DNA of 64,000 nucleotides from Sphingomonas psychrotolerans (GTDB lineage Bacteria; Pseudomonadota; Alphaproteobacteria; Sphingomonadales; Sphingomonadaceae), in NCBI RefSeq assembly GCF_002796605.1, contig NZ_CP024923.1, positions 2,170,001 through 2,234,000 of the forward strand, in the 5' to 3' direction. Numbering within the stretch: position 1 is the stretch's first letter; each line of letters begins with the position of its first letter. The notes under the pieces are model-generated. The model worked only from the letters and a program-made list of their open reading frames with translations, made no database searches and was not told the origin of the DNA. A program made the position numbers and the translations under genes. Shown here one piece after another: positions 2,968 to 18,770 of the stretch.

Positions 2968-4170
2968 TCAGCGGGCGGCGCGCTCGGCCGCCTCGACGAT
3001 GCGCAGGATATTGCCACTCCACATCTTGGCGAGGTCGGCGTCGGAATAACCCGCCTGCCTGAGCCTTTCGGTGACCTTGGGCAGCGCCGAGATGTCCGCG
3101 ATCCCGGGCAGCCCGCCGCCGCCGTCCCAGTCGGCGCCGAAGCAGACATGATCGACGCCCGCGACCTGGATCACGTGGAGCACCATCGCCATGTAGCGCT
3201 CGAAATCGGCGGCCCACATCGGCTGGGTCGCGTCGAGCGCACGCCATTTGCGGGCCAGATCCGCCTGCTGCTCGGGGCTTAGGTCGGCGATATGCTCATA
3301 TTGCGTGAACAAAGCCGCACGCTCGGGCGTCATGTTCATGTTGGACAGGAAGATCGTGCTGACGCAGATCGCCCCGCCCTTCGCAGCGAGCCTGCGGATG
3401 CGACCGTCGTCGAGATTTCGGGGATGGTCGAACGCCTCGCGCCCGCTCGAATGCGAGAGCAGCAACGGCGTCTTCGACAATTCCAGCATCTGATCGAACG
3501 CGGCGTCGGACGCGTGGCTGGCGTCGATCACCATCCCCAGCCGATTCATCTCCTCTACCCATTTGCGCCCGAGGGGTGAGAGACCATTCCATTTCGGCGT
3601 GTCTCCGGAGGAATCGGCGAACTGGTTGTTGGCGCCGTGCACCGGCCCGGCCAGCCGCACGCCGCGATCGTGGAAGTCCTCGAGCAGCGAAAGATCCTCG
3701 CCGAGCGGATAGCTGTTCTCCATGCTCTTGAACGCGATGCGCAGTCCCATACGATCGATCCGGCGCGCGTCTTCGGCGGTCATCGCGAAGTCGATGCGGT
3801 TGGGGAAGGCCGCGAGCGTGGTGTCGATCAGGTCGGATCGCTTGCGCGCGAAGGCGAGCGCGTCGGCATAGCCTTTGGCCGTCAGCGGCCCCTGCTCGGT
3901 ATAGATCGCGAAGAACCCGCCATCGAGCGCGCCGGAATCCATCCGCTCGAGATCGACCTGGACGAGGTCGGCGGCAGGGTCGTGATGCCCGGCAAAGCTC
4001 CAGCCCGGGCGGGCGAAGTGGATCGGCGTGTCGAGATGGGTGTCGAGCGTTAGGAAATCGCGATGCGATTTTTGCGCCGGCGCCGATGTGGTGGCGCAGC
4101 CGGCGAGCAGCAGGGCCAGCCCCGCCATTCCCCTCCTTTTCAGGGAGGGGAGAAAATCGGCCCGCCTCAC
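2968..4170 (-). CDS. M19 membrane dipeptidase, lipoprotein
   Basis: A 400-residue renal-dipeptidase-type (M19) zinc enzyme, which hydrolyses dipeptides and in this family often accepts a D-residue at the C-terminal side. The DTHLD motif near the N-terminus supplies the His-x-Asp metal ligands, SMENSYP the bridging Glu, and LLLSHSSGREAFDHPRN the later histidines. The signal region KRRGMAGLALLLAGC has a lipobox with Cys25, so the mature protein is probably a lipid-anchored periplasmic enzyme. It is the last gene of the minus-strand operon; its GTG start overlaps the stop of the serine hydrolase gene (GTGA). An alternative ATG at 4128 has an excellent AGGAGG site but would leave too short a signal peptide without positive charges, so GTG 4170 is preferred with some doubt. 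Confidence 0.88.
   Translation of the reverse strand: MRRADFLPSLKRRGMAGLALLLAGCATTSAPAQKSHRDFLTLDTHLDTPIHFARPGWSFAGHHDPAADLVQVDLERMDSGALDGGFFAIYTEQGPLTAKGYADALAFARKRSDLIDTTLAAFPNRIDFAMTAEDARRIDRMGLRIAFKSMENSYPLGEDLSLLEDFHDRGVRLAGPVHGANNQFADSSGDTPKWNGLSPLGRKWVEEMNRLGMVIDASHASDAAFDQMLELSKTPLLLSHSSGREAFDHPRNLDDGRIRRLAAKGGAICVSTIFLSNMNMTPERAALFTQYEHIADLSPEQQADLARKWRALDATQPMWAADFERYMAMVLHVIQVAGVDHVCFGADWDGGGGLPGIADISALPKVTERLRQAGYSDADLAKMWSGNILRIVEAAERAAR
4131..4153. repeat. GC-rich palindrome at the gene junction
   Basis: CCCCTCC at 4131-4137 and GGAGGGG near the other end form a hairpin of the same style as the CCCCTCCCGC palindromes near 35857. It overlaps the first codons of the lipoprotein dipeptidase and supplies the strong purine-rich stretch in front of the ATG at 4128. 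Confidence 0.4.
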
Positions 4171-5744
4171 TTCGCCCCCTCCGCCACCGGCCGCAGGTCG
4201 AGATCCTTATAATCGTAGCTGAAATCGGCGATCGGGCTCTCCGGCTTCATCGAGACGCGCTCCACCCTGCCCTCGGCGTCGAGCGCGAAGCTGACATAGG
4301 CCGGCTCGATCGCCTTGTCGTCGAAGCGGGTGACGAAGGTGTCGTATTGCCAGTGGACCAGCTTGCCGGCCATGCGGGGCGTGGTCTTGAAGTCGATCCG
4401 CAAGCCGTCGGCGCCGCTGGTCACGGCGACGTCGCCATACCAGGCATCGCGATAGGTCCCGGCATAGCGCGCGAGCGACAGCGACGGCCCGATCTTGGCC
4501 GGCGCGGCCTTGACGCCGGCCAGCGCCGCCTTTCCGCCTTCGATCCGCTGGGTCATGAACGCGCCGAAGCGGGCGGGCCAATCCTGATCGGGCACGCCGA
4601 GATAGTGATCGACCAGCATGTGCGCGACGCCGCGGAGCAATGCGACTTCCTCCGAATTGACCACCACCGCGATGCCGACCTCCTGATCGGGCAGCAGGAT
4701 GATGTGGGTGATCGATCCGAACACGCCGCCGCCGTGCGAGATGATCCGCGCGCCGCGATAATCCTCGACTTCCCAACCCAGCGCATAGGTGCTGAACTTG
4801 GGCGTGAGCGGGGCGAGGCTGCCCGGATATTGCGTTATCGGCTGGACGGTCACGCCCTTCCACATTTCGGCCGCCTGCGCCTCACTGAACAGCCGTCCGC
4901 CCCCGGGCAGCGCGCCGTGGCCGAGCTGGATCTTGAGCCACTGCGCGAGATCGCGCGCGCTGAGCGCCAGTCCGCCCGCCGGCATCGCGGCGCGGCCGAG
5001 TTCCTCGCGCTCGTCGAGCACCGAATTGGGCCCGTCGCCGCGCACCACGCCGCCAACCCGGGCATGCGCGAAGGCGCGATCGGGCGTCGCCCAGCGCGCT
5101 TCATACGTGGCTGTCGCGTCGCTCATTCCGCCACGCTTGAGCACTTCGCGCGCCATGAACTCTTCCCACGTCTTGCCGCTGACTTCCTCGATCAGCTGGC
5201 CGGCGACGGTGTAGAGGATGTTGTCATAGGCATAGCCTGAGCGAAAGCTGGTGGCGGGCTTGATCCAGGCGAGCCGCTTGACCGTCTCCTTGCGCGACAG
5301 GCTGCCGCGGGGCACGAACAGCAGGTCCCCCGCCCCCAGCCCGAGCCCGCTGTGATGGACGAGCAAGTCGCGGACCGTCATCTCGCGCGTCACCCACGGA
5401 TCGTACATGCGGAACCACGGCATGTGATCGATCACCTTGTCGTCCCAGCCGATTTTGCCCTGATCGACGAGGATCGCGATCGCAGTGGCAGTGAACGCCT
5501 TGCCCGTCGATCCGGTCTGGAAGATCGTGTCGGCGTCGACCTTGGCGGCCTCGCCGAGTTTGCGGACGCCCCAGCCCCTGGCGAGCGTGGTCTTGCCATG
5601 CTCGACGATCGCGACCGCGATACCAGGCGCGCCGCTCGCCTTGCGCAGCGCCTCGACCTTCGCGTCGAGCCCCGCCGGCGGATCGGCAAGCGCAGGAGCC
5701 CCGAGCGCGAGCAGCGGCAGAGCGAACAGATGATGCAGCTTCAT
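4167..5744 (-). CDS. exported serine hydrolase, beta-lactamase/D-peptidase family (S12)
   Basis: A 525-residue class C beta-lactamase-like hydrolase with a Sec signal peptide (MKLHHLFALPLLALGAPALA). Catalytic motifs are visible in order: S79-T-G-K82 (SxxK), Y173-D-N175 (YxN) and a late HGG (ISHGGGVFGS). A C-terminal beta-rich extension of the DUF3471 type follows the catalytic domain. Members include D-aminopeptidases, DD-peptidases and esterases; the sequence does not fix the substrate. The ATG at 5744 overlaps the TGA of the permease gene (ATGA), so translation is probably coupled. Its place between two dipeptidases, a permease and DgcN suggests it cleaves D-amino-acid-containing peptides in the periplasm; this is inference. 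Confidence 0.85.
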   Translation of the reverse strand: MKLHHLFALPLLALGAPALADPPAGLDAKVEALRKASGAPGIAVAIVEHGKTTLARGWGVRKLGEAAKVDADTIFQTGSTGKAFTATAIAILVDQGKIGWDDKVIDHMPWFRMYDPWVTREMTVRDLLVHHSGLGLGAGDLLFVPRGSLSRKETVKRLAWIKPATSFRSGYAYDNILYTVAGQLIEEVSGKTWEEFMAREVLKRGGMSDATATYEARWATPDRAFAHARVGGVVRGDGPNSVLDEREELGRAAMPAGGLALSARDLAQWLKIQLGHGALPGGGRLFSEAQAAEMWKGVTVQPITQYPGSLAPLTPKFSTYALGWEVEDYRGARIISHGGGVFGSITHIILLPDQEVGIAVVVNSEEVALLRGVAHMLVDHYLGVPDQDWPARFGAFMTQRIEGGKAALAGVKAAPAKIGPSLSLARYAGTYRDAWYGDVAVTSGADGLRIDFKTTPRMAGKLVHWQYDTFVTRFDDKAIEPAYVSFALDAEGRVERVSMKPESPIADFSYDYKDLDLRPVAEGAK

Positions 5745-6871
5745 GCGACGATCTCCTTGGATGCGGCGGAACGGCGCCGGAGCAGCCGCGCCAACCCGAG
5801 CGTCATCAGCGGCAGCACGAACACGGCGAGGAACAGGTACGCCAGCAGCCGATAGCCGCTGGCGATCAGCGCGATCAGCCCGACGCGCTCGGCGACGAAC
5901 ATGCACACCAGCAGCAGCACCCCCGCGATCGCGGCGCGGGCACGCGCGCTGAGCTCGGCTTCGCGGCGACGGCGGAGGACCCCTGCAATGCGCTCGTTGA
6001 TCGCATGCACCGCGCCGGTGCCGCTCTCGAGCAAGGCGGCGAAGATCATCGCCTGGAACAGCAAATGGAACGCCGGCGCGTTCAATTGCCGGAGGAGGAA
6101 ATCTGAAGGCAGAGTCTCGGCGCCGATCGCGGGATAGAAAGCGATCATGCAGACGAAGAACAGGATCGCCGGTGCCATCGCCAACGGCCCGGCGATGAGG
6201 CCCGCGACCACGGCGTCGCGCGTGCTGGTCAAATGCCGCAGCACCGGCAGGATCACCACCGCGCCGATGATGTTGTAGCTGGCATAGGTCAGCCCGCCCG
6301 ACGCCCAGCCGGTCCGCGGCGCCGGCGTTGCGAAGCCCATGGCGATGCGGTCGCCGAAGCTGAGCAGGCTGAGGATCAGGAACAGCGCATAGACGCCGTA
6401 GAGCAGGAACGAGACATATTTGAACACGCCTTCGACTGCCGCATTGCCCAACGAAACGGTGGCGAGGATCCCCCCCGCGAGCAGCAATGCCCCGACGAAG
6501 CTCGACCAGCCGAACATCGCCGCGCTGATCGCGCCCGCGCTTGCCCCGAACACCGCAAGAATCAGCACCACGAACAGGATGTACGCCACTTCGAACGCGA
6601 TCCACGCCGGGCCGAGCAAATCGGCGAAAAAGGCACGATAGTCGAGCGCCCCCGCCAGCCGGGCATAGGCAAAGGTGGTCGCCGCAATCACGCTCCACAG
6701 CAGCATCGCCAGCAGCATGCCGGCGAGTCCGCCCCACGGCCCCGCCGGCAGGAAATACTCCGCCAGCTCACGCCCGGTGGCATAGCCGCCGCCGATGATC
6801 ACGGCCTTCATCGCGAAGCCGGGCAACAGGAAGCGCTGGAACCAGCTCGATCCTGCGGCGGCTGCGCTCAT
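5741..6871 (-). CDS. YkvI-like multi-pass membrane permease
   Basis: A 376-residue integral membrane protein with about ten hydrophobic segments. The N-terminal GFAMKAVIIGGGYATGREL is the recognisable signature of the YkvI group (COG3949), uncharacterised proteins distantly related to amino-acid/sodium symporters of the LeuT-like fold. Start ATG 6871 overlaps the TGA of dgcN (ATGA), and its own stop overlaps the next start, so the three genes are translationally coupled. Context suggests it imports D-glutamate, an acylated amino acid or a dipeptide across the inner membrane. No transport activity can be proved from sequence. Confidence 0.75.
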   Translation of the reverse strand: MSAAAAGSSWFQRFLLPGFAMKAVIIGGGYATGRELAEYFLPAGPWGGLAGMLLAMLLWSVIAATTFAYARLAGALDYRAFFADLLGPAWIAFEVAYILFVVLILAVFGASAGAISAAMFGWSSFVGALLLAGGILATVSLGNAAVEGVFKYVSFLLYGVYALFLILSLLSFGDRIAMGFATPAPRTGWASGGLTYASYNIIGAVVILPVLRHLTSTRDAVVAGLIAGPLAMAPAILFFVCMIAFYPAIGAETLPSDFLLRQLNAPAFHLLFQAMIFAALLESGTGAVHAINERIAGVLRRRREAELSARARAAIAGVLLLVCMFVAERVGLIALIASGYRLLAYLFLAVFVLPLMTLGLARLLRRRSAASKEIVA

Positions 6872-7908
6872 GCCAGGCAGCTATCGACGAGCGCGTCGAA
6901 CGCCGGCCCGCCGCGCACCGGATCGGCGACCGGAAGCCCGAGCCGTTTGCTCTCGCGCCACATCACCTCGGCAGCCTCGGCCTCATCCAGCGCCGACGTG
7001 TTGAAGCTGAGCCCGCCGCAGCGGATGTTCGGGTTGGTCCTCCGCCCGAGCGCCAAGGTGAGATCCACGATCTCCTCGATCGTCGCGACCTGATAGCCCG
7101 CGGTGCCGAGCATTTCGGTCCGCCCCGGCTCGTGACACACCACGAACACGTCCGGCTGGCTGCCATGGAGCAGCCCCAGCGAGACCGCCGCATAAGCCGG
7201 ATGCGCGAGCGAGCCCTGCCCTTCGATCACATCCCAATGCTCCGGCGCGGCGTCAGGCGAGAGCATCTCCGCCGCGCCCGCCTCGAAATCAGAGACCACT
7301 GCGTCCATCGGCATGCCCCCGCCGGCGATCATGATCCCGGTCTGCCCCGTGGCGCGGAAATCGCTCGCCACACCGCGCTGCGCGAAGGCGCGCGCCAGCG
7401 CCAGCGCGGTGTACTTCTTGCCGAGCGCGCAATCGGTTCCCACCGTCAGCAACCTTTTCCCCGTCCGCTTGCGCCCCGTCGCCACCGGAATCTGCGCCGG
7501 CGGCACCCGGATGTCGATCAGCCGCCGCCCGAGCAACGCAGCGGTTTCACGCAGCTCAGGAATGTCGGAAAGCCGCGTGTGCATCCCCGCGACCACGTCG
7601 AGTCCCGCCTCGAGCGCCTCGACCAGCGAGGCACGCCAGCTCTGCGGGATCACCCCCCCGGCATTCGCCACGCCGATCACCAGCGCCCGGGCGCCCTGCG
7701 CATAAGCCTCGACTGGCGTGAGCTGCGGCAGCCCGGTGGTCACCGCCGCGCCAGCAAGGGTGAGCTCGCCGACGCATTTCTCGGGCGCCCAGTCGCGCAG
7801 TCCCAAAGCGGTCTTGGCGAAGCCGCGTTCGACCGTGTCGCCGAGGAACAGCAGATATGGCTGCGGCAGGGCAAGCGTGTCGGCCTTCAGGCCGAAGGGA
7901 GCATTCAT
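6868..7908 (-). CDS. dgcN: DgcN-like protein (DUF1611), probable D-glutamate N-acyltransferase
   Basis: A 346-residue cytoplasmic protein of the DUF1611/COG3367 family. The C-terminal half begins with a P-loop-like motif (TVGTDCALGKKYTA, about 155-168) and contains EGQGSLAHPAY and HEPGR, characteristic of this family. Some members have been described as DgcN, which N-acetylates D-glutamate before racemisation by DgcA. The partner racemase is encoded at 11397-12410, which supports the call. The start is ATG 7908 (MNAPFGLK), 20 bases after the TonB receptor gene. Longer in-frame readings upstream run into the receptor gene and are rejected. Substrate could be another D-amino acid; the family assignment is firmer than the reaction. 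Confidence 0.75.
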   Translation of the reverse strand: MNAPFGLKADTLALPQPYLLFLGDTVERGFAKTALGLRDWAPEKCVGELTLAGAAVTTGLPQLTPVEAYAQGARALVIGVANAGGVIPQSWRASLVEALEAGLDVVAGMHTRLSDIPELRETAALLGRRLIDIRVPPAQIPVATGRKRTGKRLLTVGTDCALGKKYTALALARAFAQRGVASDFRATGQTGIMIAGGGMPMDAVVSDFEAGAAEMLSPDAAPEHWDVIEGQGSLAHPAYAAVSLGLLHGSQPDVFVVCHEPGRTEMLGTAGYQVATIEEIVDLTLALGRRTNPNIRCGGLSFNTSALDEAEAAEVMWRESKRLGLPVADPVRGGPAFDALVDSCLA

Positions 7909-7927
7909 GGGATGCGCTTCCTGCAAA

Positions 7928-10135
7928 TCAGAATGAGAGATCGAAGGCGAGGCCGATCGTGCGCGGCTGGAGGGGCGTGATCGCGAGGAAGCTCGGCTGG
8001 TTGAGCCCGTTGGCCAGCGTCGAGCGCGCGATCTCCCCGTCATTGTCGAGCAGATTACGGGCATAGGCCCTCACTTTCCAATGCTCGCCGATGTTGAGCG
8101 CGGCATTCAGGTCGACCGCCGTATAGGGCCGTGCTCGCGCGGTCAGCGGATCGCTCTCGACCAGCGACAGCCGGCTGCTCGCATGCCGCACGCCCACGCC
8201 GAAATCGCCGCTCAGATCGCCGCCCAGCTCGGCATGATAATCGAGCCGCGCCGAGCCGCTGAATTTGGCCACACCCGGCAGCTGGTCGCCATCGGCGCCG
8301 CTGATGTCCGGAACGTCCTCGGCGAGCGTGGCGTCGGTGTAGGACGCAGTCAGCCCCAGCGACAGCCCGGTCGCCGGCCGGATGGTCAGCGCGCCTTCGA
8401 CGCCCTTGCTCACCGCCGCACCGCCATTGGCCTGCCCCGCCACGCCGCCGAAGCTGCGCGTCACCTGGATGTCCTTCCAGTCCATGTAGAAGGCCGCGAC
8501 GTCGATCGTCACCGCGCGCCCGGCAAGATCCGCCTTGAAGCCCACTTCATAATTGGTGAGCGTATCGGATTCGACGCTCGGCGGCACGTTGGGGACGATC
8601 ACGTTGGGGCCGCCCGGGCGATAGCCCGTGGCGACGCGCGCATAGAGCATCGCATTCTCGTTCACATGGAATTGCGGGCTGACGCTCCACGTGAAGACGT
8701 CCTCTTCGGAACTGCCCGGATCGTCCGCCGTAGGCACGATCGCGCCTTGGCTGATCTGGCGGAAATTCTGCTCGTTGCGCGCCCAGCGCACCCCGCCGGT
8801 GACCTCGAAGCGCTCGCCGAGGCGCAAGGTCGCGTTGCCGAACACGGCATATTCCTTGTACTTCGCCGGCAGCGCGACCGTCGCCAGCGGGTCAAGCGGC
8901 GGGATCGCGTTGCCGGCCATGTCGTACGAGCGGACGAGCTGCGTATTGTCGCTCTTCTCCGATGTGTAGAAGCCGCCGACCAACCATTCGAAGGTGCCGC
9001 CGCTCGCCGAGGCGAGCCGCACTTCCTGCGTCCACTTCTCTAGATCGAGGTTGATGTCGAACGGCGTGATGCCGGGTGCGATCGCGCCGCCGGTGAGCAG
9101 CGGAAAGAGCACGCCGAACGCATAGGTCGCGTCCTGCAGCTGGCGGGCGGAACGCTTGCTATAGGTCGTGCTCGACGTGGCGCTAACCCCGCCGAAATCA
9201 TAATCGAGCGTGCCCGCGTAATATTGCAGGTCGGTCTGGAAGGCCTCGGCAACGTAATTGTTGTACGAAGATCCGTCGCCCAGCCGCTTGCCCGTCAGGT
9301 CGGCGGCGTAGACTCCGTTCCCGTCGGCATCGACCGACTGGTACAGCGCCGATAGCTTCGCGCTGAACCGGTCGCTCGCCTGCCACAACAGGCTGAAGCG
9401 CCCGCCGATCTGCTCGTAAGCGTTCTGATCCTTGAGCGCGGCATTGTTGGTGCTGTTCACGAAGCCCGGCGTCTTGCGCCACGCGAAGCTGCCGGTGACG
9501 CCCAGCTTGCCCTGCACCAGCGGTGCGTTGAACATCGTCTGCCCGGCCCAGCCGAGATCGCCTGCCCCATTGATCCCGAACACTTCGCCGCCGGCGCGGA
9601 CGCTGAAAATGGTCGTGCTCGGCGCGACGGTGACGTATTTGACCAGCCCGCCGATCGAGCTGGCGCCGTAGAGCGTGCCCTGCGGCCCGCGCAGCACTTC
9701 GACGCGCTCGATGTCATAGGGCAGCAGATCGAGCGAGAATTGCCCGCCGCGATTGTAGATGCTGCTCGATCCCACCGGCGCATCGTCGAGATAGATGCCG
9801 ACGGTCTGGCTGGCGGTGAGCGGCGCGACGCCACGCAGCGTGACGGTGGTCTGCCCTGGCGTGCCGCCGGTCGACACCTGCATGCCCGGAATATAGCCGG
9901 CGTAATCGGTGAGCGAGGCCGCGCCCTGCGCCTGCATGTCGTCGCCGCTGACCACGCTGATCGAGATCGGCACGTCTTGAAGGTTCTGCTCGCGTTTCTG
10001 CGCAGTGACGACGATCTCGTCGCCGGGCGCGGCAGCCGGCACTTCCTGCGCGGCGGCGCCGGAGGAGAAAGCCAGCGCCCCCGCGGCAGTCGAAACCGCC
10101 AGCAGCGCGCGTACGGACAAGGCGAACCGGTTCAT
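7928..10135 (-). CDS. TonB-dependent outer-membrane receptor
   Basis: A 735-residue outer-membrane receptor. It has a signal peptide (MNRFALSVRALLAVSTAAG...AAAQ), a TonB-box-like stretch DEIVVTAQKREQNLQDVPISI, a plug domain (VEVLRGPQGTLYGASSIGG) and a 22-strand-type barrel ending in LAFDLSF with a C-terminal Phe. ATG 10135 is chosen because GGGGAGAG lies at good distance; an ATG 15 bases further out lacks a site. It lies 27 bases after the Tat dipeptidase and 20 bases before dgcN, inside the operon, so its substrate is probably the peptide or amino-acid compound this operon degrades and not iron-siderophore. That substrate assignment is inference. Confidence 0.9.
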   Translation of the reverse strand: MNRFALSVRALLAVSTAAGALAFSSGAAAQEVPAAAPGDEIVVTAQKREQNLQDVPISISVVSGDDMQAQGAASLTDYAGYIPGMQVSTGGTPGQTTVTLRGVAPLTASQTVGIYLDDAPVGSSSIYNRGGQFSLDLLPYDIERVEVLRGPQGTLYGASSIGGLVKYVTVAPSTTIFSVRAGGEVFGINGAGDLGWAGQTMFNAPLVQGKLGVTGSFAWRKTPGFVNSTNNAALKDQNAYEQIGGRFSLLWQASDRFSAKLSALYQSVDADGNGVYAADLTGKRLGDGSSYNNYVAEAFQTDLQYYAGTLDYDFGGVSATSSTTYSKRSARQLQDATYAFGVLFPLLTGGAIAPGITPFDINLDLEKWTQEVRLASASGGTFEWLVGGFYTSEKSDNTQLVRSYDMAGNAIPPLDPLATVALPAKYKEYAVFGNATLRLGERFEVTGGVRWARNEQNFRQISQGAIVPTADDPGSSEEDVFTWSVSPQFHVNENAMLYARVATGYRPGGPNVIVPNVPPSVESDTLTNYEVGFKADLAGRAVTIDVAAFYMDWKDIQVTRSFGGVAGQANGGAAVSKGVEGALTIRPATGLSLGLTASYTDATLAEDVPDISGADGDQLPGVAKFSGSARLDYHAELGGDLSGDFGVGVRHASSRLSLVESDPLTARARPYTAVDLNAALNIGEHWKVRAYARNLLDNDGEIARSTLANGLNQPSFLAITPLQPRTIGLAFDLSF

Positions 10136-10162
10136 CTTAACTCTCCCCATGAGTGCACGAAA

Positions 10163-11311
10163 TCAGTCGCCCCAGATCTCCCCAAGCAGGCGACGGAAGT
10201 TGCCGCCGAGCACGGCGGCGATGTTGGCGTCCGAATAATTGCGTCGGATCAGTTCTTCGGTGAGGTCGTAGATCTTGCGTGGATGGTCGTAGCCATCGGT
10301 GTCGATCTTCGCGCGGAAGGCGTAGCTCGCTTTGTATGCGGCCTTGAGCTGGGCATACATATCGGGCGGCATGTCCTCATAGCCGTTGAGATCGGCGTCC
10401 GAGCCGATCCCGACATGATCGATCCCCACCAGCTTGACGACATGATCGATGTGATCGGCGATCTGCGGCACCGCGGTCGGCTCGCTGGCGCTGACGAACA
10501 TGCGGACCCCGGTGATCCCCATCACGCCGCCCTTGGCCGCCATCGCCTTGATCGCTTCGTCGGTCTTGAGGCGCGGATGCTCGACCAGAGCGCGGCAATT
10601 GCTGTGGGTGATGGCGATCGGCTTCGACGATATCTCGATCGCATGGAGCGTGGTGCGATCGCCGCAATGCGAGACGTCGACCAGCATGCCGACCTGGTTC
10701 ATCGCCTTGATGATCTCGGCACCGAAATCGGTCACGCCGCCGTCGACGCGTTCGGTCGCGCCCGAGCCGAGCAGATTTTGCGAATTATAGGTCAGCTGCG
10801 AGCAGCGCTGGCCGATCTGGTGGAACAGTTTGACGTCGGCGACGGTGCGGAAATGCTCGCTGTTCTGCATGCCGAGGATCACGGCGATCTTGCCCTCCTG
10901 CTTGGCGCGATCGAGATCGGCCGCCTTGTCGACCAGCGTGAACAGATGCGACGCCCGGCCGACATAGCCTTGGCTCAGCGCGAGGAAGGTGAGCGTCTCC
11001 TCGCGCGCATTGGGGCCGTAAATGCCGATCGAATGGTGGAAACCGGTGATCCCGCAGGCGCGGAAATCGGCTTCGTCCTTCGCGCTCAGCGGCGCGCCAT
11101 AGAATTGCGGGCGATCGTCGATCTTGAGCACTTCGAGCATGTCGATCACGAGCGACGCGCGCACCAGATCGACCGCGCGGCGCGAATAAAGGACGGGCGA
11201 GGCGGCCGACAGCCGGAACTGGCCGCTATTGACCATCGGGAACCCCGTGGCCGCGACAGCAGCCGCGCCGCCGAGCATCCGGCGACGCGAGACCTTGGGC
11301 AATGATTGCAT
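10163..11311 (-). CDS. M19-family dipeptidase, Tat-exported, variant metal site
   Basis: A 382-residue M19-type protein with a twin-arginine signal (SRRRMLGGAAAVAATG). The later family motifs are present: MQNSEHF (bridging Glu), LVDVSHCGD and ITHSNCRALVEHPR (histidines) and IGSDADLNG (Asp). The usual early His-x-Asp pair is absent: where DxHxD is expected the sequence reads VIDMLEVLKIDD. A subfamily with this change may exist; the effect on metal binding or substrate is unknown. It is the first gene of the operon running down to 2968, with a strong site (AGGGAGAG) and a palindromic operator-like element upstream at 11336-11363. Confidence 0.85.
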   Translation of the reverse strand: MQSLPKVSRRRMLGGAAAVAATGFPMVNSGQFRLSAASPVLYSRRAVDLVRASLVIDMLEVLKIDDRPQFYGAPLSAKDEADFRACGITGFHHSIGIYGPNAREETLTFLALSQGYVGRASHLFTLVDKAADLDRAKQEGKIAVILGMQNSEHFRTVADVKLFHQIGQRCSQLTYNSQNLLGSGATERVDGGVTDFGAEIIKAMNQVGMLVDVSHCGDRTTLHAIEISSKPIAITHSNCRALVEHPRLKTDEAIKAMAAKGGVMGITGVRMFVSASEPTAVPQIADHIDHVVKLVGIDHVGIGSDADLNGYEDMPPDMYAQLKAAYKASYAFRAKIDTDGYDHPRKIYDLTEELIRRNYSDANIAAVLGGNFRRLLGEIWGD

Positions 11312-11335
11312 TGCCGCTCTCCCTTGAGCGATTAT

Positions 11336-11363
11336 CTAATCAGGATGGTATTATCCTGATTAG
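11336..11363. promoter_or_regulatory. perfect 11-bp inverted repeat, probable operator of the dipeptidase-dgcN operon
   Basis: CTAATCAGGAT (11336-11346) and its exact complement ATCCTGATTAG (11353-11363) are separated by six bases. Read on the minus strand it sits just after a -35-like TTGACT (complement of 11369-11374) and before the ATG at 11311, where a repressor would act. The outer half plus the -35 box matches the region upstream of the second operon at 14512-14531. Confidence 0.65.
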
Positions 11364-11396
11364 AGAAGAGTCAACTATTATTGCAACTATGTTGCG

Positions 11397-12410
11397 TCAC
11401 GCGCGCACTGCGTTCAGCGCGCGGTGGCCCCAGACGGCTTCGGGGCAGTGGATATAGCCGTCGTTGTAGCGAATGCCCGGCTGGCGGTCGGCCGCGAGGA
11501 ACGTCGGGCCATCGAGATCGACCACGTCGCAGAGCTGGCCGAGCAGGAACGCCGGCGCCATCGCCAGGCTGGAGCCGACCATGTTGCCGACCATCACGTC
11601 GAGCCCGAGCAGCCGCGCGCGGCGGGCGATCGCGATCGCCTCGGTCAGGCCGCCGCATTTGTCGAGCTTGATGTTGACCGTGTCGAAGCGCCCGACAAGC
11701 CCGTCGAGATCGGCGAGCCCGAGCGCGCTCTCGTCTGCTGCGATCGGGATCGGCGAATCGAACCCGTCGAGATCGGCTTCGCGCCCACGGGCGAGCGGCT
11801 GCTCGAGCAAAGCGGCCTTCGCCTCGACCAGCACGGCGAAGAGCGCCTCCAGCTCGTCAATGCGGAAACCCTGATTGGCGTCGACTCCGATCCAGCATTC
11901 CGGGCGCGCAGCACGCACCGCGCGGATCCGTGCGCTGTCGAGATCGAGATCGCCGGTGAGCTTGAGCTTGAGCGCCCGCGCATCCCGGTACCCTGATGCG
12001 GCTTCAGCCATCGCCCCGGGTTCGTCGGCGCCAAGCGTGAAAGTGGTGAGTAATGGCTTCGGCTCGGGCAAGCCCGCCAGCTTCCAGACCGGTGCGCCCG
12101 CGCGCCTGGCGTCGAGCTCCCACAATGCGCAGTCGGCGGCGTTGCGCGCCCCGCCCGGTGGCAGCGCCTGCTGGAGTTCGGCACGCGTCATCCCGCCCTG
12201 CAGGTCGTCGCGCACCGTCTCCAGCGCCGCAGTCATCGCGTCGACATCGTCGCCCAGATAATAGACCCCGCTCGCTTCCCCCCGCCCCGTGTGGAGTCCG
12301 TCGGACAGAGTGACGACCACCACCGAGGACTCGGTGAAGACGTGCCCCGAGATCCGGAACGGCTTCGCGAAAGGAAGCCGTTCCACTGCCACGTCGAGCG
12401 AGAGACGCAT
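11397..12410 (-). CDS. dgcA: enolase-superfamily racemase/dipeptide epimerase, DgcA-like
   Basis: A 337-residue muconate-lactonizing-subgroup enolase-superfamily enzyme. The catalytic lysines K148-x-K150 (ALKLKLTGD), metal ligands D177 (GVDANQGF), E203 (LLEQPL) and D226 (AADES), and the opposite lysine K248 (VNIKLDKCGG) are all present. This pattern fits L-Ala-D/L-Glu epimerases and DgcA, described as an N-acetyl-D-glutamate racemase. With dgcN nearby, DgcA is the favoured role, giving an L-glutamate derivative; a murein dipeptide epimerase is the alternative. The start is ATG 12410 (MRLSLDV) with GAAGG upstream, 11 bases after the serine hydrolase stop; it is in one operon with that gene. 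Confidence 0.8.
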   Translation of the reverse strand: MRLSLDVAVERLPFAKPFRISGHVFTESSVVVVTLSDGLHTGRGEASGVYYLGDDVDAMTAALETVRDDLQGGMTRAELQQALPPGGARNAADCALWELDARRAGAPVWKLAGLPEPKPLLTTFTLGADEPGAMAEAASGYRDARALKLKLTGDLDLDSARIRAVRAARPECWIGVDANQGFRIDELEALFAVLVEAKAALLEQPLARGREADLDGFDSPIPIAADESALGLADLDGLVGRFDTVNIKLDKCGGLTEAIAIARRARLLGLDVMVGNMVGSSLAMAPAFLLGQLCDVVDLDGPTFLAADRQPGIRYNDGYIHCPEAVWGHRALNAVRA

Positions 12411-12421
12411 CACCACCGCCT

Positions 12422-14395
12422 TCAGAACTCGGTGCCGAAGGAGATCAACTTGTAGACCAGAGCGGTGTACAGGATGAAGAACGCACCGAGCACCAGCAGC
12501 ACGCTCCACACCCGCGCGAACCAGCTGCGCTTGTCCTTCCAGCTGAGCCAGGCGTTCCAGATCGCCAGCCCGAACAGCCCGAAGAAAGCGAGCGTGCCGG
12601 CAATCTGGAGCAGCAGGATCAGCCAATCGGTCGAGCCGTGGCTCTCGAAATCCTCGAGCCCGGTGATCACCAGCATCCAGCCGACCAAAACCGCCAGCAC
12701 CAGCCAGGCAAAGCCACGAACCGTCCGGAAGGTGCGCAGGCTCTCGCCCTGCAGCGCCAACTGTGCGCCGTAGCGGCGGCGGTTAAACCAGCCGATCGGC
12801 CAGGCGAGTGCCGTCAGGAACACCACACCGATCCCGAACAGCAAAGCGGGCATCAGCCACGCGCCGTCGAGCGCGCCGGGGGTGCGGTACCAGATCATGA
12901 AGGGCGACACTTCGCCGAAGCTCCAGCGCACGACCTTGCCGTCGACGACCTGCGCGGCGAGCCGCTCATGGCCATAGGCGTCCTGCCAGACAAAGGGTTC
13001 GACTTCGATCAGCTTGCGCGGGGCGCCGCCGGGGCTGGTGAGTGCGGGGATGACCGGGCGGCCATCGGCGTCGAGCCCGATCTTGATGTCCCCGATCAGG
13101 CCGATGATCTTGGCGAAGCTCGAGTCGATCCGGCGGCTATTGGTCCAGGTGCCGACGAGCAGCTTGGCGTGCTCCTTGGCTGTGGGCAGCTCGACCGGGG
13201 CAGCCTTTTTGGGATCGGGGAGATAACGGTCGGCGAACTCCTCGAACAGTCGGCCACGCAGCACACGCGCGACGCCGTCTTTCCCGTTGCTGTTCATCGA
13301 GATGTAGAGCCCGACATTGTCCTCGGGGAAGATCCACAGATCGCTGTGGAAATAGACCGTGTCGCCGCCATGCGAGATCGAGCGGTGGCCGTTGATCTTC
13401 TGTTCGTAGAAGCCGAGCGCCATCGTGTTGATCGTCGGGATCGCGCTCTGCTGGGGCGTATACATCTGCGCCGCGGTCGCGGGGCTGAGCAGCGCGCCGC
13501 CCTGGTTCAGATGGGCGATCATGAACTTCGCCATGTCGCCGCCGCTGATCGCCGAGGAGCCGGCGGGCGCCATGCCGATCTCTTCGTATTTCTTCGCCTC
13601 GCCCGAACCGAGCTCATAGCCCTGCGACATGAACGGCTTGAGCCTGGATGGCAGCGGCTGACGGAAGGTCGCATACTGCATTCCCAGCCGCGCGAAGATG
13701 TTGCGGTCGAGATAATCGTCGAACGGCATACCCGAGACGCGCTCGACGATGTAGCCGGCGAGCGCGGTCGCATAATTCGAATAAGCCGGGGTGGTACCGG
13801 GCGCATAGATCCGCTCGGGGATGCGGCGCTTCAGCACGTCGCCAAGGCTCGGTACCGGCTTGTCGAAGGTGAGGAGGCCCTTGATGATCTCCTCGAAGCC
13901 GGCGGTGTGCGTCATGATGTTGCGCAGCGTGATCGGCTTGCCCTGATATGCCGGTATCTTGAAGTCGAGATACTGGTTCACGTCGGCGTCGAGGTTGAGT
14001 TTGCCTGCCTCGACCTGCTGCATCACCGCGGTCCAGGTATAGAGCTTCGAGACCGAGCCGGGGCGGAACAGCGTGGTCGCCGGATCCACCTGCTTGCGCT
14101 TGGCGACATCGGCATAGCCGAAGCCGCGCTGGGTGAGGATCTGGCCGTCCTTGACCACGACCACCACCGCGCCGGCGACGTCGCCGCGCGCGAGCGCATA
14201 GGGCATGAAGCCGTCGAGCCACGCATCGGCATCGACCTTGGTGAGCGTCGCGGTGCCTGCCGGAGCGCTCGGGACGGTCGGTGCCGGCGCTTGCGCGACC
14301 GGGGTCAGCGGCGCCGGCGCCTGAGTGAAGGCTGGTACACCGACCGCGATGCCGAGCAATCCTGCTGCGAGCATCGTAAGCGAACGTTTCCACAT
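12422..14395 (-). CDS. serine hydrolase (S12) with C-terminal membrane domain
   Basis: A 657-residue protein with an N-terminal signal/anchor, a Pro/Ala-rich spacer (about 25-50), a beta-lactamase-family domain with S114-V-S-K117, Y205-S-N207 and HGG (RSISHGGDTVYF), and then a C-terminal part with about four hydrophobic segments (roughly 515-655). The soluble active domain should face the periplasm while the C-terminus anchors it in the inner membrane. Family members include D-alanyl-D-alanine carboxypeptidase- and D-aminopeptidase-like enzymes. It is the first gene of the two-gene operon with dgcA and divergent from the XRE-cupin regulator, which suggests common control. Substrate is not determined by sequence. 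Confidence 0.85.
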   Translation of the reverse strand: MWKRSLTMLAAGLLGIAVGVPAFTQAPAPLTPVAQAPAPTVPSAPAGTATLTKVDADAWLDGFMPYALARGDVAGAVVVVVKDGQILTQRGFGYADVAKRKQVDPATTLFRPGSVSKLYTWTAVMQQVEAGKLNLDADVNQYLDFKIPAYQGKPITLRNIMTHTAGFEEIIKGLLTFDKPVPSLGDVLKRRIPERIYAPGTTPAYSNYATALAGYIVERVSGMPFDDYLDRNIFARLGMQYATFRQPLPSRLKPFMSQGYELGSGEAKKYEEIGMAPAGSSAISGGDMAKFMIAHLNQGGALLSPATAAQMYTPQQSAIPTINTMALGFYEQKINGHRSISHGGDTVYFHSDLWIFPEDNVGLYISMNSNGKDGVARVLRGRLFEEFADRYLPDPKKAAPVELPTAKEHAKLLVGTWTNSRRIDSSFAKIIGLIGDIKIGLDADGRPVIPALTSPGGAPRKLIEVEPFVWQDAYGHERLAAQVVDGKVVRWSFGEVSPFMIWYRTPGALDGAWLMPALLFGIGVVFLTALAWPIGWFNRRRYGAQLALQGESLRTFRTVRGFAWLVLAVLVGWMLVITGLEDFESHGSTDWLILLLQIAGTLAFFGLFGLAIWNAWLSWKDKRSWFARVWSVLLVLGAFFILYTALVYKLISFGTEF

Positions 14396-14489
14396 CGCGC
14401 TGTTCCCCTTTGTCCCCGCTGCGCTCCGGCCATGTCGATTGCGCCGGTTTGCGTCTGCGGTTAGGCTGTGTCTCTATACGAACTTGTTA

Positions 14490-14531
14490 CGCCTGATTGA
14501 GACATAATGAGCCTGTTCAGAGAAATGTCAA
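14490..14531. promoter_or_regulatory. two half-sites and promoter-like element upstream of the serine hydrolase-dgcA operon
   Basis: CCTGTTCAGAGAAATGTCAA (14512-14531) matches CCTGATTAGAGAAGAGTCAA (11355-11374) at 16 of 20 bases. Both include the complement of a -35-like TTGACA/TTGACT. A further copy, CCTGATTGAGA, begins at 14492, about two helical turns away. The element lies between the serine hydrolase gene and the divergent regulator, so it could serve both directions. Confidence 0.55.
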
Positions 14532-14544
14532 ACTGGGGTGCCAA

Positions 14545-15174
14545 ATGGCCACGCGGCTGAAACCGGAGCAACCGACATTGGGCGCGCTGCTGCGTGCGCT
14601 GCGTGCCCGGAACAGCTGGACGCTCAAGGAGATGAGCGTGCGCAGCGGCATCCCGGTCTCGACCTTGTCCAAGGTCGAGCACGACCGGCTGACGCTGACC
14701 TATGACAAGCTTCTCCAGCTCAGCCAGCGGCTCAACATCCGCATGTCCGAACTGTTCGCCGAGAATGATTCGGTCGCCGAGCCGCCGGTCACGGCGCGGC
14801 GCAGCATCGGCGATCTCGAGCGCGCGGTGCGGGTGAACACGCCGAACTACGATTATTATTACCTCTGCACCGAGTTGCGCCGGAAGCGGATGATCCCGGT
14901 GATCACTCGCGTGCGCGCCAAATCGGTCGAGGAGTTCGGCGATCTCGTCCACCATTCGGGCGAGGAATTCATCTACATCGTCAGCGGCCGCATCGTCGTC
15001 CACACCGAATTCTACGATCCGGTGACGCTCGAGGCGGGCGAATCGATCTACATCGATTCGAACATGGGCCATGCTTATGTGACTGGCGAAGGCTGCGACG
15101 AGGCGGTGGTGCTGGGGGTGTGCTCGAGCGCCGAGGACGGGCTGATGGATTCGCTGCTCAACCTGCACGGCTAG
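14545..15174 (+). CDS. XRE-family regulator with C-terminal cupin sensor domain
   Basis: A 209-residue cytoplasmic regulator. The N-terminal helix-turn-helix (LGALLRALRARNSWTLKEMS followed by SGIPVSTLSKVEHDR) is of the XRE/Cro type; the C-terminal half is a cupin_2 beta-barrel (HHSGEEFIYIVSGRIVVHTE and DSNMGHAYVTG) that binds a small ligand. This architecture is common for regulators of amino-acid or sugar-acid catabolism such as PuuR and SutR. ATG 14545 is preferred to the in-frame TTG at 14497, which overlaps the operator-like sequence. It is divergent from the serine hydrolase-dgcA operon and is the likely regulator of both minus-strand operons. Confidence 0.85.
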   Translation: MATRLKPEQPTLGALLRALRARNSWTLKEMSVRSGIPVSTLSKVEHDRLTLTYDKLLQLSQRLNIRMSELFAENDSVAEPPVTARRSIGDLERAVRVNTPNYDYYYLCTELRRKRMIPVITRVRAKSVEEFGDLVHHSGEEFIYIVSGRIVVHTEFYDPVTLEAGESIYIDSNMGHAYVTGEGCDEAVVLGVCSSAEDGLMDSLLNLHG

Positions 15175-16089: not shown

Positions 16090-18462
16090 TTACCCTTTCG
16101 GCACCAGCATCGTCCGCCCCGCCGCCCGCGCATCCACTGCCGCCCGGCTGAACAGCATCGGCTGCATCGCCCCGGCGATCCACGGCGCATATTGATCGCG
16201 ATGATGCGGCGAGCGCGGGTCGTTCGACTGGCCCGGCAGGTTGAGCATCAACGAATTGTCCCACGCGCCGACGTCGATCACCTGCAGATAGCTCGCGCCG
16301 CCGCCGGTTCGCCAGCCGGGGCCGCCGCCGAGCCACCGCGCCATCACCGTATAGCCGTCGCCGCCCGATCCTTCGCCCTCGATCGGCGGAAAGGCCCTGG
16401 CGATCGCCGGGATGCGCGACAGCGGATGCTGGATGCGGACGCTATGGAGCGCGTCCCAGCGCCATTTCGCAGGATCGGCATCGAGCAAGGAATGCGCCGC
16501 GCCCCACGCCGCGGTCAGCGCGCGATCGAGTATCGCGTCGCGCGCCGCGATCGGATCGGTGCCGAGGCGATCGTCGGGTTTGGCGAGCAGTCCGAGCAGA
16601 ACGGAGGGCGCGATCTCCCTGACGAGGTGCTTCGCGCGGGCGGGCACGATCGCGGCGAGCACGCGCTGGCCGAGGTCGCGCCACAGGATCTCGAACAATG
16701 CCGCCGCGCCGCTGCCCGCATCGATCCGCGCGTCCCAGCATCGCAGCATCGCCACCGCCGGGGCCGCGGCGGAGGACGGGCGTTCGGGCAGGATCGCGAG
16801 CAACTGCCGCGCCGGCGTCGACAGCGTGTCGTGCTGCAGCGCGACGCTGTCGGCGAGGCTGTGCCGCTCCTGCCGCGAGAGGACATCCACGATCCGCTCG
16901 TAGCGATAGGGATCTCGGAACGAGAAAGCGGGAATTCGGTCGCGCGGCCAGTCGGCGGGGAGGTTGTTCTGGTTGGCCGAGGCGAACCAGCCCCTGGCCG
17001 GATTATATTCGCTGGGCAGCGAGGCGAAGTCGCGCATCCCGGTCCAGTCGTAGCGCCCGTCGCCGGGCACCGGGAGTAGCCCCTCGCCCTTCTTGCGCAC
17101 CGGCGCGAAGCCGATCACCTGCCAGCCGGTATTCCCGTCGACATCGGCATAATGGAAATTGGTCGGCGAAGGGTGGAGCGGAAAGGCCTTGCGCAGGCTC
17201 TTCCAGTCTTTCGACAGATTGATCGCGATCATCGCGAATGCGCCATGCCCGCCCGGCTGCATCCCGATCGACGCGATCGCGGTCGCGCGCCGTCGACCGG
17301 AATCGTGCGACACCACCGGCCCCTGCACCGTGTAGCGCAAGGTGGTGACGTACGGCGCGCCGCCCTTGACCGCGATCGCCACCTCGACCCGGCGGAACGC
17401 CTTCCAGCCGCCCTCATGCCGGTAGCGCTCGGGATCCGCCGGATCGAGTTCGAGCACGAACAGGTCGAGCTGGTCGATGTGGAAATTGGTCCGCCCGAAG
17501 GCGAAGCGATCGGTGTGTCCCTGCATGATGCCGGGCAGTCCGGGCGAGCCGCCGCCGATCACGTCGAGCCCCGGCGCGCTCAGATGCGCGACGTGGCGCG
17601 GACCGAAGCTGCCGATGCCGAGATGCGGATCGTTGGCGAGGATCGGCCGGCCGGTCGCAGTGCGCGACGGCGCCACCGTCCACGCATTGCTGCCGGCATT
17701 GGCGCGCTCGGCCGGCCCCGCGGCGGGATCGGCCACCGGCGTCTCGGGTCCGAACGGCAATCCGCCGAGCTGGAGGATGCCGAGATCGGCTTCCGAGACC
17801 GCAGCGACATCGAGGCCGTCGGGCACTTGCATCCGCCAGCTCGGCCGCAGCGGCGCGATGATCGCGTCGAGATCGAGCAGCCCCAGCGCGGCGAGCCGGG
17901 CGCGGCGCACTTCGTCATCGGCATTGTCGATCGAGGCGCCGCGCGCGAGCACCAGATCGCGCACGTCCCAGCGCAGCGGCGCCACGCCAAGGATCGCATA
18001 TTCGAGCGGCAGCAGCGTGCGATCGGCGAGGACTTCGTCGATCCGCGCATTGATCCCGGCGACATAGGCGCGGGCGCAGGCGAGTATTTCGGGCGGCACC
18101 CGCCGCAGCTCGGCATCGAGATCGCCGCGATAATGGAACAGCCGCGCCGTCGCGTCGTGCCGCGCGAAGTCGCGCCCAAAGACTTCCGCCAGCCGCCCGA
18201 GCTCGCGCCGGTGCGACAAGTCGATCTGGAACAGCCGATCGCGCGCGACGACATAGCCCTGGCCGAAAAAGGCATCGGGAATCGATGCGGCGCGGATGTG
18301 CGGCACCCCGAACGCATCGTCGATGATCTCGATCGGCGCGTCGGCACCGCGGACCACCGTCTCCGCCGTGGCGCGCGCCCCGCGCTGAACTCGCGCGGCG
18401 GCGGCCGGCGCCAGCGCCAGAGTCGCGACCGAGCCGAGCAGGAAGGAACGGCGGGCGAGCAT
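16090..18462 (-). CDS. penicillin-acylase family N-terminal-nucleophile hydrolase
   Basis: A 790-residue precursor of a periplasmic Ntn-hydrolase. A twin-arginine-like signal (MLARRSFLLGS) is followed by the alpha-chain region (FGVPHIRA, FFGQGYVVARDRLFQID), a spacer, and the self-cleavage site G257-S258 in NAGSNAWTVAPSRT, where Ser258 becomes the N-terminal nucleophile of the beta chain. LANDPHLG and later NTGWQVIGFAPVR are typical. Family members hydrolyse amide bonds of beta-lactams, acyl-homoserine lactones or N-acylated amino acids; the sequence does not decide between these. ATG 18462 is chosen over longer frames because AGGAAG precedes it and the signal peptide begins there. It is divergent from a TonB receptor gene, which hints at a common substrate. 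Confidence 0.88.
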   Translation of the reverse strand: MLARRSFLLGSVATLALAPAAAARVQRGARATAETVVRGADAPIEIIDDAFGVPHIRAASIPDAFFGQGYVVARDRLFQIDLSHRRELGRLAEVFGRDFARHDATARLFHYRGDLDAELRRVPPEILACARAYVAGINARIDEVLADRTLLPLEYAILGVAPLRWDVRDLVLARGASIDNADDEVRRARLAALGLLDLDAIIAPLRPSWRMQVPDGLDVAAVSEADLGILQLGGLPFGPETPVADPAAGPAERANAGSNAWTVAPSRTATGRPILANDPHLGIGSFGPRHVAHLSAPGLDVIGGGSPGLPGIMQGHTDRFAFGRTNFHIDQLDLFVLELDPADPERYRHEGGWKAFRRVEVAIAVKGGAPYVTTLRYTVQGPVVSHDSGRRRATAIASIGMQPGGHGAFAMIAINLSKDWKSLRKAFPLHPSPTNFHYADVDGNTGWQVIGFAPVRKKGEGLLPVPGDGRYDWTGMRDFASLPSEYNPARGWFASANQNNLPADWPRDRIPAFSFRDPYRYERIVDVLSRQERHSLADSVALQHDTLSTPARQLLAILPERPSSAAAPAVAMLRCWDARIDAGSGAAALFEILWRDLGQRVLAAIVPARAKHLVREIAPSVLLGLLAKPDDRLGTDPIAARDAILDRALTAAWGAAHSLLDADPAKWRWDALHSVRIQHPLSRIPAIARAFPPIEGEGSGGDGYTVMARWLGGGPGWRTGGGASYLQVIDVGAWDNSLMLNLPGQSNDPRSPHHRDQYAPWIAGAMQPMLFSRAAVDARAAGRTMLVPKG

Positions 18463-18592: not shown

Positions 18593-18770
18593 AACGTATA
18601 GAAGCCCGCCACCGGTTGACGCTTCGCGCGGGCACGGCGCACCCTTCCCCCGGCACGAACGCATGCCGGCCCGCAAGAGGCCGCGGCGCGCGTGTGGTGC
18701 GTTGCCGCGGAGGGCATTCGCGCAGGCCGGTCCGCCGGTCCCGAAGGTTCATCCCAACAGGGGGGTCGAA

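Follow-up and report, generated by a model that had tools for sequence, protein, structure and literature searches.

Bacteria are generally believed to consume neutral D-amino acids by oxidation or deamination. The DgcN-DgcA pathway (EC 2.3.1.312 and 5.1.1.25), taken here from NCBIfam names and from excerpts of PMC11747546, PMC12363236 and PMC10845958, pairs a DUF1611 protein with an enolase-superfamily enzyme, and the survey PMC12363236, in its excerpted text, uses dgcN as a marker of an acidic D-amino-acid pathway. In YcjG/YkfB muropeptide recycling, an enolase-superfamily epimerase occurs with nearby peptidases, according to an excerpt of PMC5808125 that also gives L-Ala-D/L-Phe, -Tyr and -His as substrates of the T. 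maritima dipeptide epimerase (PDB 2zad); an excerpt of PMC13338154 assigns the latter a wide range, hydrophobic dipeptides included. Here we describe a nine-gene island at positions 2968–15174 of a 64,000-nucleotide stretch of the 5.04 Mb genome of Sphingomonas psychrotolerans (contig NZ_CP024923.1, positions 2,170,001 to 2,234,000; the window). No description of this cluster was found in the open-licence literature searched. We propose, at a probability of about 0.5, that the island is a regulated system for scavenging peptides with D-residues, in which an N-acyl racemization (or dipeptide-epimerization) module would have been retuned to an uncharged D-residue, perhaps an aromatic or hydrophobic one.

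The island resembles each of the closest described systems in part. First of all, it shares with the DgcN-DgcA pathway a DUF1611 protein and an enolase-superfamily partner encoded close together, as well as the same DgcA catalytic residues, but differs in its transporter, regulator and peptidases, in scores below the model cut-offs and in the loss of basic residues. Second, as in YcjG/YkfB recycling, an enolase-superfamily enzyme that keeps the DxD motif lies near peptidases; on the other hand, the window DgcA reaches only 239.5 bits against the L-Ala-D/L-Glu epimerase model NF011708 (cut-off 343) and lacks the YcjG-like Arg22, and the island adds a TonB receptor, DgcN and YkvI. Third, the window DgcA has Gly at the loop position of the canonical Arg, as does the T. 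maritima epimerase, which is nevertheless distant in sequence (68.8 bits). Finally, D-glutamate catabolism of the dguRABC type in Pseudomonas has, like the island, a dedicated operon with its own regulator, but is an oxidative route that uses a D-amino-acid dehydrogenase and other enzyme families.

Organization of the island

The original prediction listed two M19 dipeptidases, two S12 serine hydrolases, a TonB receptor, a YkvI-type permease, a DgcN-like and a DgcA-like protein and an XRE-cupin regulator, arranged as two minus-strand operons plus one divergent gene, and Pfam and NCBIfam profiles together with the coordinates confirm all nine on the strands given. One minus-strand operon comprises S12b and dgcA, 11 bases apart. 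The other runs M19b, TonB receptor, dgcN, ykvI, S12a and M19a, with gaps of 27 bases after M19b and 19 bases after the receptor gene, followed by 4-base overlaps at dgcN/ykvI, ykvI/S12a and S12a/M19a. The two operons are separated by 85 bases (11312–11396), inside which lies an inverted repeat at 11335–11364, and the regulator gene is divergent from S12b. The nearest named relative by dgcN is Sphingomonas gei (92% identity).

The DgcN-like and DgcA-like proteins

The DgcN-like protein (6868–7908, minus strand) contains both DUF1611 domains (PF17396, 88.0 bits; PF07755, 236.6 bits), matches PDB 7xrj at 353 bits and scores 450.1 bits against NF041892, below the equivalog cut-off of 480; the DgcA-like protein (11397–12410, minus strand) scores 377.4 bits against NF042940, below the equivalog cut-off of 400. 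A second DUF1611-enolase pair in the same genome, at 2.706 Mb (C1:2705814–2707399), passes both cut-offs (DgcN 515.6/480, DgcA 434.7/400) and is neighbored by an Amidohydro_3 protein and an SDF-family symporter (PF00375), for which the best curated models, DctA and GltP, are both below cut-off. Of 396 genomes drawn from across the phylum, 153 match the window DgcA at E ≤ 1e-40, and among the matches listed the scores are bimodal, with six copies above 365 bits (one each in G000, G037 and G286, three in G476) and the rest at or below 295. The three copies in G476 are of the window clade and occur with a POT transporter and without dgcN.

The window-type DgcA proteins form one clade. In a tree of 109 of the 136 aligned rows, built by a quick method with no bootstrap, with approximately every second row from the window-DgcN scan omitted, eight loci kept deliberately and long branches for L143, L138, L126 and L174, the clade holds 56 rows with a Shimodaira-Hasegawa-like approximate likelihood-ratio (SH-aLRT) support of 96, and its core of 52 rows has a support of 99. 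Short twins of longer loci were dropped before alignment, and some identical twins remain among the 136 rows. Residue 22 is Gly in 55 of the 56 clade rows and Ser in one; the clade excludes all 52 Arg rows and one His row. Across the whole alignment, residue 22 is Gly in 82 rows, Arg in 52 and Ser or His in two (L126 and L142, placed in neither group); as the two groups are defined by residue 22 itself, column 22 is not independent evidence there, while the tree is.

The change at residue 22 is accompanied by others in the same region. The two N-terminal loops shape specificity in the enolase superfamily, and the window DgcA has Gly22, Phe25 and Tyr51 where the canonical loops carry Arg22, Lys or Arg25 and often Arg51. 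In 72 core rows, chosen by a cut set after the data had been seen, the loops are neutral and aromatic in character, with His or Tyr23, Phe25 and Tyr50 each present in 70 and Tyr51 in 71; the 52 Arg22 (canonical) rows have Lys or Arg25 in 45 and Arg51 in 33. The Arg loop is also found in E. coli YcjG and PDB 4gfi, and 2zad reads PFHITGSV, with Gly, counted from the shared PF, at the position of the Arg of YcjG and canonical DgcA. The catalytic machinery, on the other hand, is unchanged. The window DgcA keeps K148/K150, D177, E203, D226 and K248, plus the DxD at 298–300; the six catalytic residues (KxK, the D/E/D metal ligands and the second Lys) are kept in 72/72 core and 52/52 canonical rows, and the DxD in 82/82 Gly22 rows and, in the canonical rows, as D298 in 52/52 and D300 in 51/52 (one gap). 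The window DgcN has Ala at position 41, as do 93 of 94 window-subfamily rows (at least 62% identity to the window protein), and 24/24 rows outside have Arg, the groups being set by overall identity; neither Arg41 nor the DgcA loop residues are published criteria. DgcA Arg22 and DgcN Arg41 might bind glutamate.

The window pair is most likely not the standard D-glutamate pair and would instead be a divergent sister of DgcN-DgcA. D-glutamate, which the original prediction had named as the substrate, is probably the wrong one, because a pair that passes both cut-offs lies elsewhere in the genome, the window pair misses both and the basic loop residues and Arg41 are absent.

Linkage, transport and regulation

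From a contig scan of 580 relatives with the window DgcN, the best 80 loci were taken. Counted at any position in the locus, homologues number 60 for dgcA, 59 for ykvI, 64 for the regulator, 57 for S12a, 76 for S12b and 40 each for M19a, M19b and the receptor; 55 loci hold dgcN, dgcA, ykvI, regulator and S12 together, and 15 hold all nine genes somewhere in the locus. Sphingomonas, Sphingopyxis and Altererythrobacter share the gene order, and so do the gammaproteobacteria Steroidobacter, Peristeroidobacter and Povalibacter, although they lack some of the genes; in Rudaea the genes are ordered differently. The occurrence of this order in both Alpha- and Gammaproteobacteria suggests transfer of the island between the classes. 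A second arrangement, M19b-dgcN-S12 without dgcA or ykvI nearby, is also common (for example in L012, L013, L016, L017 and L019). In these five loci the dgcN is of the window type (79–81% identity) and M19b is kept. Recurrent neighbors elsewhere are an exported Amidohydro_3 protein, CocE/S15 hydrolases, a POT peptide transporter, an S9 peptidase, a Beta-lactamase2 protein and an amidohydrolase resembling Xaa-Pro dipeptidase (353 bits against a cut-off of 500).

As a control on linkage, 60 loci were fetched by DgcA score and not by context. Family genomes supplied 40, namely 16 above the cut-off and 24 of the 26 other-genome matches lying between it and 290 bits (one match was omitted for an internal stop and one as a fragment), and the phylum draw supplied 20. 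Of the 60 loci, 12 are window-like (at least 58% identity to the window DgcA, a cut set post hoc), 37 are Arg22 loci and 11 are others. YkvI is encoded in 11/12 window-like loci, 0/37 Arg22 loci and 0/11 others (Fisher test of core against Arg22, p = 4e-10), and the sole window-like locus without ykvI and dgcN is L140, a whole contig of 12 kb. In the same order, the counts are 11/12, 0/37 and 3/11 for the regulator, 12/12, 2/37 and 7/11 for S12, 9/12, 0/37 and 0/11 for M19, 11/12, 16/37 and 4/11 for dgcN, 2/12, 0/37 and 5/11 for PTR2 and 2/12, 7/37 and 2/11 for Amidohydro_3 homologues; the SDF symporter occurs in 0/12, 3/37 (p = 0.57) and 0/11. The neighborhood comparison that the original prediction had proposed for YkvI, DgcN and DgcA thus shows linkage beyond chance.

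The YkvI-type inner-membrane transporter (5741–6871, minus strand) gave no Pfam or NCBIfam match at E ≤ 0.001 and no sequence match in the PDB, and its relatives are named 'YkvI family membrane protein' in the databases. An AlphaFold2 model built with 13 sequences has a predicted local distance difference test score (pLDDT) of 79.4. Foldseek with this model returns APC/LeuT-fold transporters (Nramp/MntH, BasC, ApcT and LAT) at E-values down to 2.5e-6, with a probability of 1.00 for the 50 entries listed and query template modeling (TM) scores of 0.46–0.68; the top query TM-scores (0.66–0.68) belong to amino-acid transporters (for example BasC 0.68, b0,+AT 0.68, SLC7A10 0.67). The model fits, though it is no proof of, a protein that takes in single amino acids rather than peptides, and supports the proposal that YkvI provides the inner-membrane step.

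All four hydrolases have export-type N-termini, and DgcN and DgcA have none, as judged by eye. M19a (2968–4170, minus strand; GTG start) has a lipoprotein-like signal (LLLAGC) and the motifs HLD, SMENS, SHAS, LSHS and GADWD, and matches PDB 2rag at 424 bits. M19b (10163–11311, minus strand) has a Tat-like signal (SRRRM) and matches PDB 2i5g at 153 bits. The expected M19 family membership is borne out for both, which exceed the PF01244 gathering score of 26 (283.3 bits for M19a; 255.8 bits, from profile position 32, for M19b). The classical metal motif does not extend to M19b, which lacks the N-terminal His-x-Asp that we take to be the metal motif of classical M19 enzymes; because DML replaces it in 49/49 aligned M19b sequences, the window included, the metal center of M19b may differ from that of classical M19 dipeptidases. 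S12a (4167–5744, minus strand; PF00144, 203 bits, and a C-terminal DUF3471, PF11954, in a profile scan from 5723) has a Sec-like signal and intact SxxK/YxN/HxG motifs, read as STGK, YDN and HGG. S12b (12422–14395, minus strand; PF00144, 198 bits) has a Sec-like signal and hydrophobic C-terminal segments, with motifs intact as SVSK, YSN and HGG. D-residue chemistry in general, a further element of the original prediction, is supported by these enzyme families and, more weakly, by exported Amidohydro_3 proteins next to dgcN in related loci, with a homologue in 30/80 dgcN-matched loci; these proteins match PF07969 and fall below the cut-off of NF006560, and we take them to be D-aminoacylase-like.

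The TonB-dependent receptor (7928–10135, minus strand; PF00593 and PF07715) is only 38–49% identical in 8 of 11 near relatives (L005–L011, L014, L015, L018 and L045), in which DgcN is 78–92% identical. M19b is absent from all of the loci with a swapped receptor (L005, L007, L008, L010, L011, L014, L018 and L045) except L005. Receptor and M19b thus appear to behave like a swappable cassette among close relatives, and the differences in the receptor suggest several substrates.

The XRE-cupin transcriptional regulator (14497–15174, plus strand; PF13560/PF01381 and PF07883; 35.8 bits against the PuuR model, cut-off 211) probably starts at the ATG at 14545 and not at 14497. The motif TCCTGATTRGA occurs perfectly at only two sites genome-wide, both ahead of M19b at 11335–11364, where an inverted pair of TCCTGATTAGA half-sites, with first bases 19 apart, is the probable operator of the M19b-to-M19a operon; the same inverted arrangement is found in 8 places among the loci and the window. 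Upstream of the regulator, the motif is present with at most two mismatches in 52/59 island loci, the rate in 1,180 random windows from the same loci being 8%, and at most one mismatch anywhere in the locus is seen in 64/70 loci with dgcN and ykvI against 19/71 others; since the core was picked by eye from the same loci, these controls are indicative. All seven gammaproteobacterial loci among the 59 (L053, L057, L059, L064, L065, L068 and L080) carry it upstream of the regulator within one mismatch. No genome-wide regulon emerges from the perfect sites, and the 46 one-mismatch sites were not followed further. The regulator would bind TCCTGATTRGA. Loci, motif and context table all show conservation beyond chance of the gene set originally envisaged, which spans from the outer membrane to the cytoplasm and has a regulator of its own.

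The functional block may extend on the regulator side to a penicillin-amidase-family acylase (16090–18462, minus strand; PF01804, 584 bits) and a second TonB-dependent receptor, divergent from it (18663–21806, plus strand; PF00593 and PF07715). The acylase has a match at E ≤ 1e-80 in 11 of 119 family genomes. Eight of these matches, its own included, have at least 53% identity, and six of the eight lie within 13 kb of a dgcA above the cut-off (canonical dgcA in G076, G104, G037, G102, G059 and G053); the window acylase is 3.7 kb from a window-type dgcA, and that of G085 is far from its dgcA. The three matches of 39–41% identity are on contigs other than those of the dgcA matches. Acylase and receptor stand side by side in L008 and L018, in both on the other side of the island, and in L121 and L159. 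Acylases of this family and the receptor thus seem to be located preferentially close to D-amino-acid modules, whether canonical or window-type. Further along the window, an M20-family peptidase/deacylase at 58393–59475, one of 16 M20 matches genome-wide, is a possible N-acyl-amino-acid deacylase. At the opposite edge, the gene next to the island (850–2964) encodes a sensor histidine kinase that matches PAS and, weakly, dCache; it is also kept in L005 and L006.

Weighing the readings

In the scheme that we favor, scavenging of D-residue peptides through a retuned module, substrate, order of steps, N-acylation and direction of transport are all putative. The TonB receptor, perhaps with the second receptor and the acylase, would bring peptides or N-acyl peptides into the periplasm, where the two S12 and two M19 hydrolases would break them down into dipeptides or single amino acids. 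YkvI, as an APC-fold permease, would move amino acids to the cytoplasm, where the DgcN-like enzyme would N-acylate the D-amino acid and the DgcA-like enzyme would racemize the N-acyl product. A deacylase encoded elsewhere (for example an M20 protein) would then release the L-amino acid, with both operons controlled by the XRE-cupin protein through TCCTGATTRGA sites.

Several observations weigh against this scheme. First of all, YkfB (1jpm), a glutamate enzyme, also lacks Arg22, its Arg standing one residue later in a gapless alignment (presumably Arg24), and the changed loop is therefore no proof of a new substrate. The losses in the two proteins are not strictly coupled, as L134, L153 and L161 (Gly22) and L126 (Ser22) carry a dgcN with Arg41. 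Furthermore, the DgcN pathway takes in acidic D-amino acids and their amides, in the excerpted text of PMC12363236, so that D-Gln or D-Asn would be an uncharged yet already known substrate, a milder meaning of 'uncharged'. Second, the linkage of ykvI depends on how the core is drawn, the 52-row core of the tree adding L134, L141 and L155–L158, which have no ykvI, and bringing the count to 11/18. Five of these loci (L141 and L155–L158) have a window-clade dgcA with a POT transporter (PTR2) and S12 and no dgcN in the 16 kb fetched, a context that argues for dipeptide epimerization there. Third, low confidence in the YkvI model falls at residues 1–18, 24–28 and 207–216, probably the breaks of transmembrane segments 1 and 6 (TM1 and TM6), and the best Foldseek E-value belongs to Nramp ion transporters. 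No deacylase gene was recognized in the island block. Finally, besides the choice of the operator core by eye, the copy at the window's own regulator promoter (GCCTGATTGAGACATAATGAGCCTGTTCAGAGAAATGTCAAAC; 14491–14533, plus strand, from comparison with L006 and L008) is degenerate, with three mismatches per half-site, and lies outside the 52 loci counted, and one-mismatch sites are common genome-wide (46, against 11 for a reversed control pattern).

Two rivals, both of which we consider unlikely, survive best. In the first, the window pair would be a working DgcN-DgcA route for D-glutamate, fed by peptides from peptidoglycan or poly-gamma-glutamate. That pathway exists, with both of its EC numbers (PMC11747546, excerpted text), and its own models, NF041892 and NF042940, are the best NCBIfam models of the window pair, which reaches 94% of their cut-offs. 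The M19 and S12 enzymes would, as families, suit muropeptide-type substrates. The missed cut-offs, the pair elsewhere that passes both, and the absent basic residues of DgcA and Arg41 of DgcN all speak against it; the SDF symporter beside that other pair adds little, given 3/37 Arg22 loci against 0/12 and DctA and GltP scores below cut-off. Equally improbable in our estimate is the second rival, in which DgcA would be an L-Xaa-D-Yaa dipeptide epimerase with an uncharged Yaa, L-specific peptidases would finish the task and DgcN would do something parallel. The DxD, which presumably binds the dipeptide amino group, is invariant in the Gly22 rows, but it is kept equally in canonical DgcA. The PTR2 transporter beside the dgcN-less clade members and in 10/80 of the best dgcN loci would suit this rival; it is opposed by dgcN in 11/12 of the most window-like loci and by an island permease that models as APC-fold and not as POT.

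Degradation of non-ribosomal peptides or lipopeptides with D-residues, similar to antibiotics or cyanotoxins, for detoxification as well as nutrition, is a more doubtful prospect still. The adjacent acylase and second TonB receptor, the S12 fold shared by beta-lactamases and dgcN loci in Sphingosinicella microcystinivorans and Sphingopyxis microcysteis (L041 and L081) point that way, but many carrier strains have no such link in their names and the variation of the receptor among close relatives suggests several substrates. A chance gathering of general peptide or cell-wall maintenance genes beside dgcN can be dismissed as highly improbable. Sphingomonads commonly carry S12 enzymes, M19 enzymes and TonB receptors, but the gene set, with its overlaps, its divergent regulator and its motif, is found repeatedly in two classes, and the 60- and 80-locus context table rejects chance co-occurrence.

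A broader version of the retuned-module reading can be offered only tentatively, at somewhat less than even odds. DgcN-DgcA would be a versatile module for N-acyl racemization, and its window subfamily would have been retuned to D-amino acids without charge, probably aromatic or hydrophobic ones. Together with exchangeable TonB receptors, D-peptidases of the periplasm, an acylase, YkvI as a new class of D-amino-acid permease and a dedicated XRE-cupin regulator, this subfamily would make up a transferable system, reaching from the outer membrane to the cytoplasm, for the consumption of D-residue (lipo)peptides. If true, non-oxidative N-acyl racemization tied to a full uptake chain would account for the use of D-residue peptides by sphingomonads, and the uncharacterized YkvI family would gain a role. 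Not every DUF1611-enolase pair should then be taken for an acidic D-amino-acid pathway, and the presence of two pairs in one genome makes the question of substrate directly testable.

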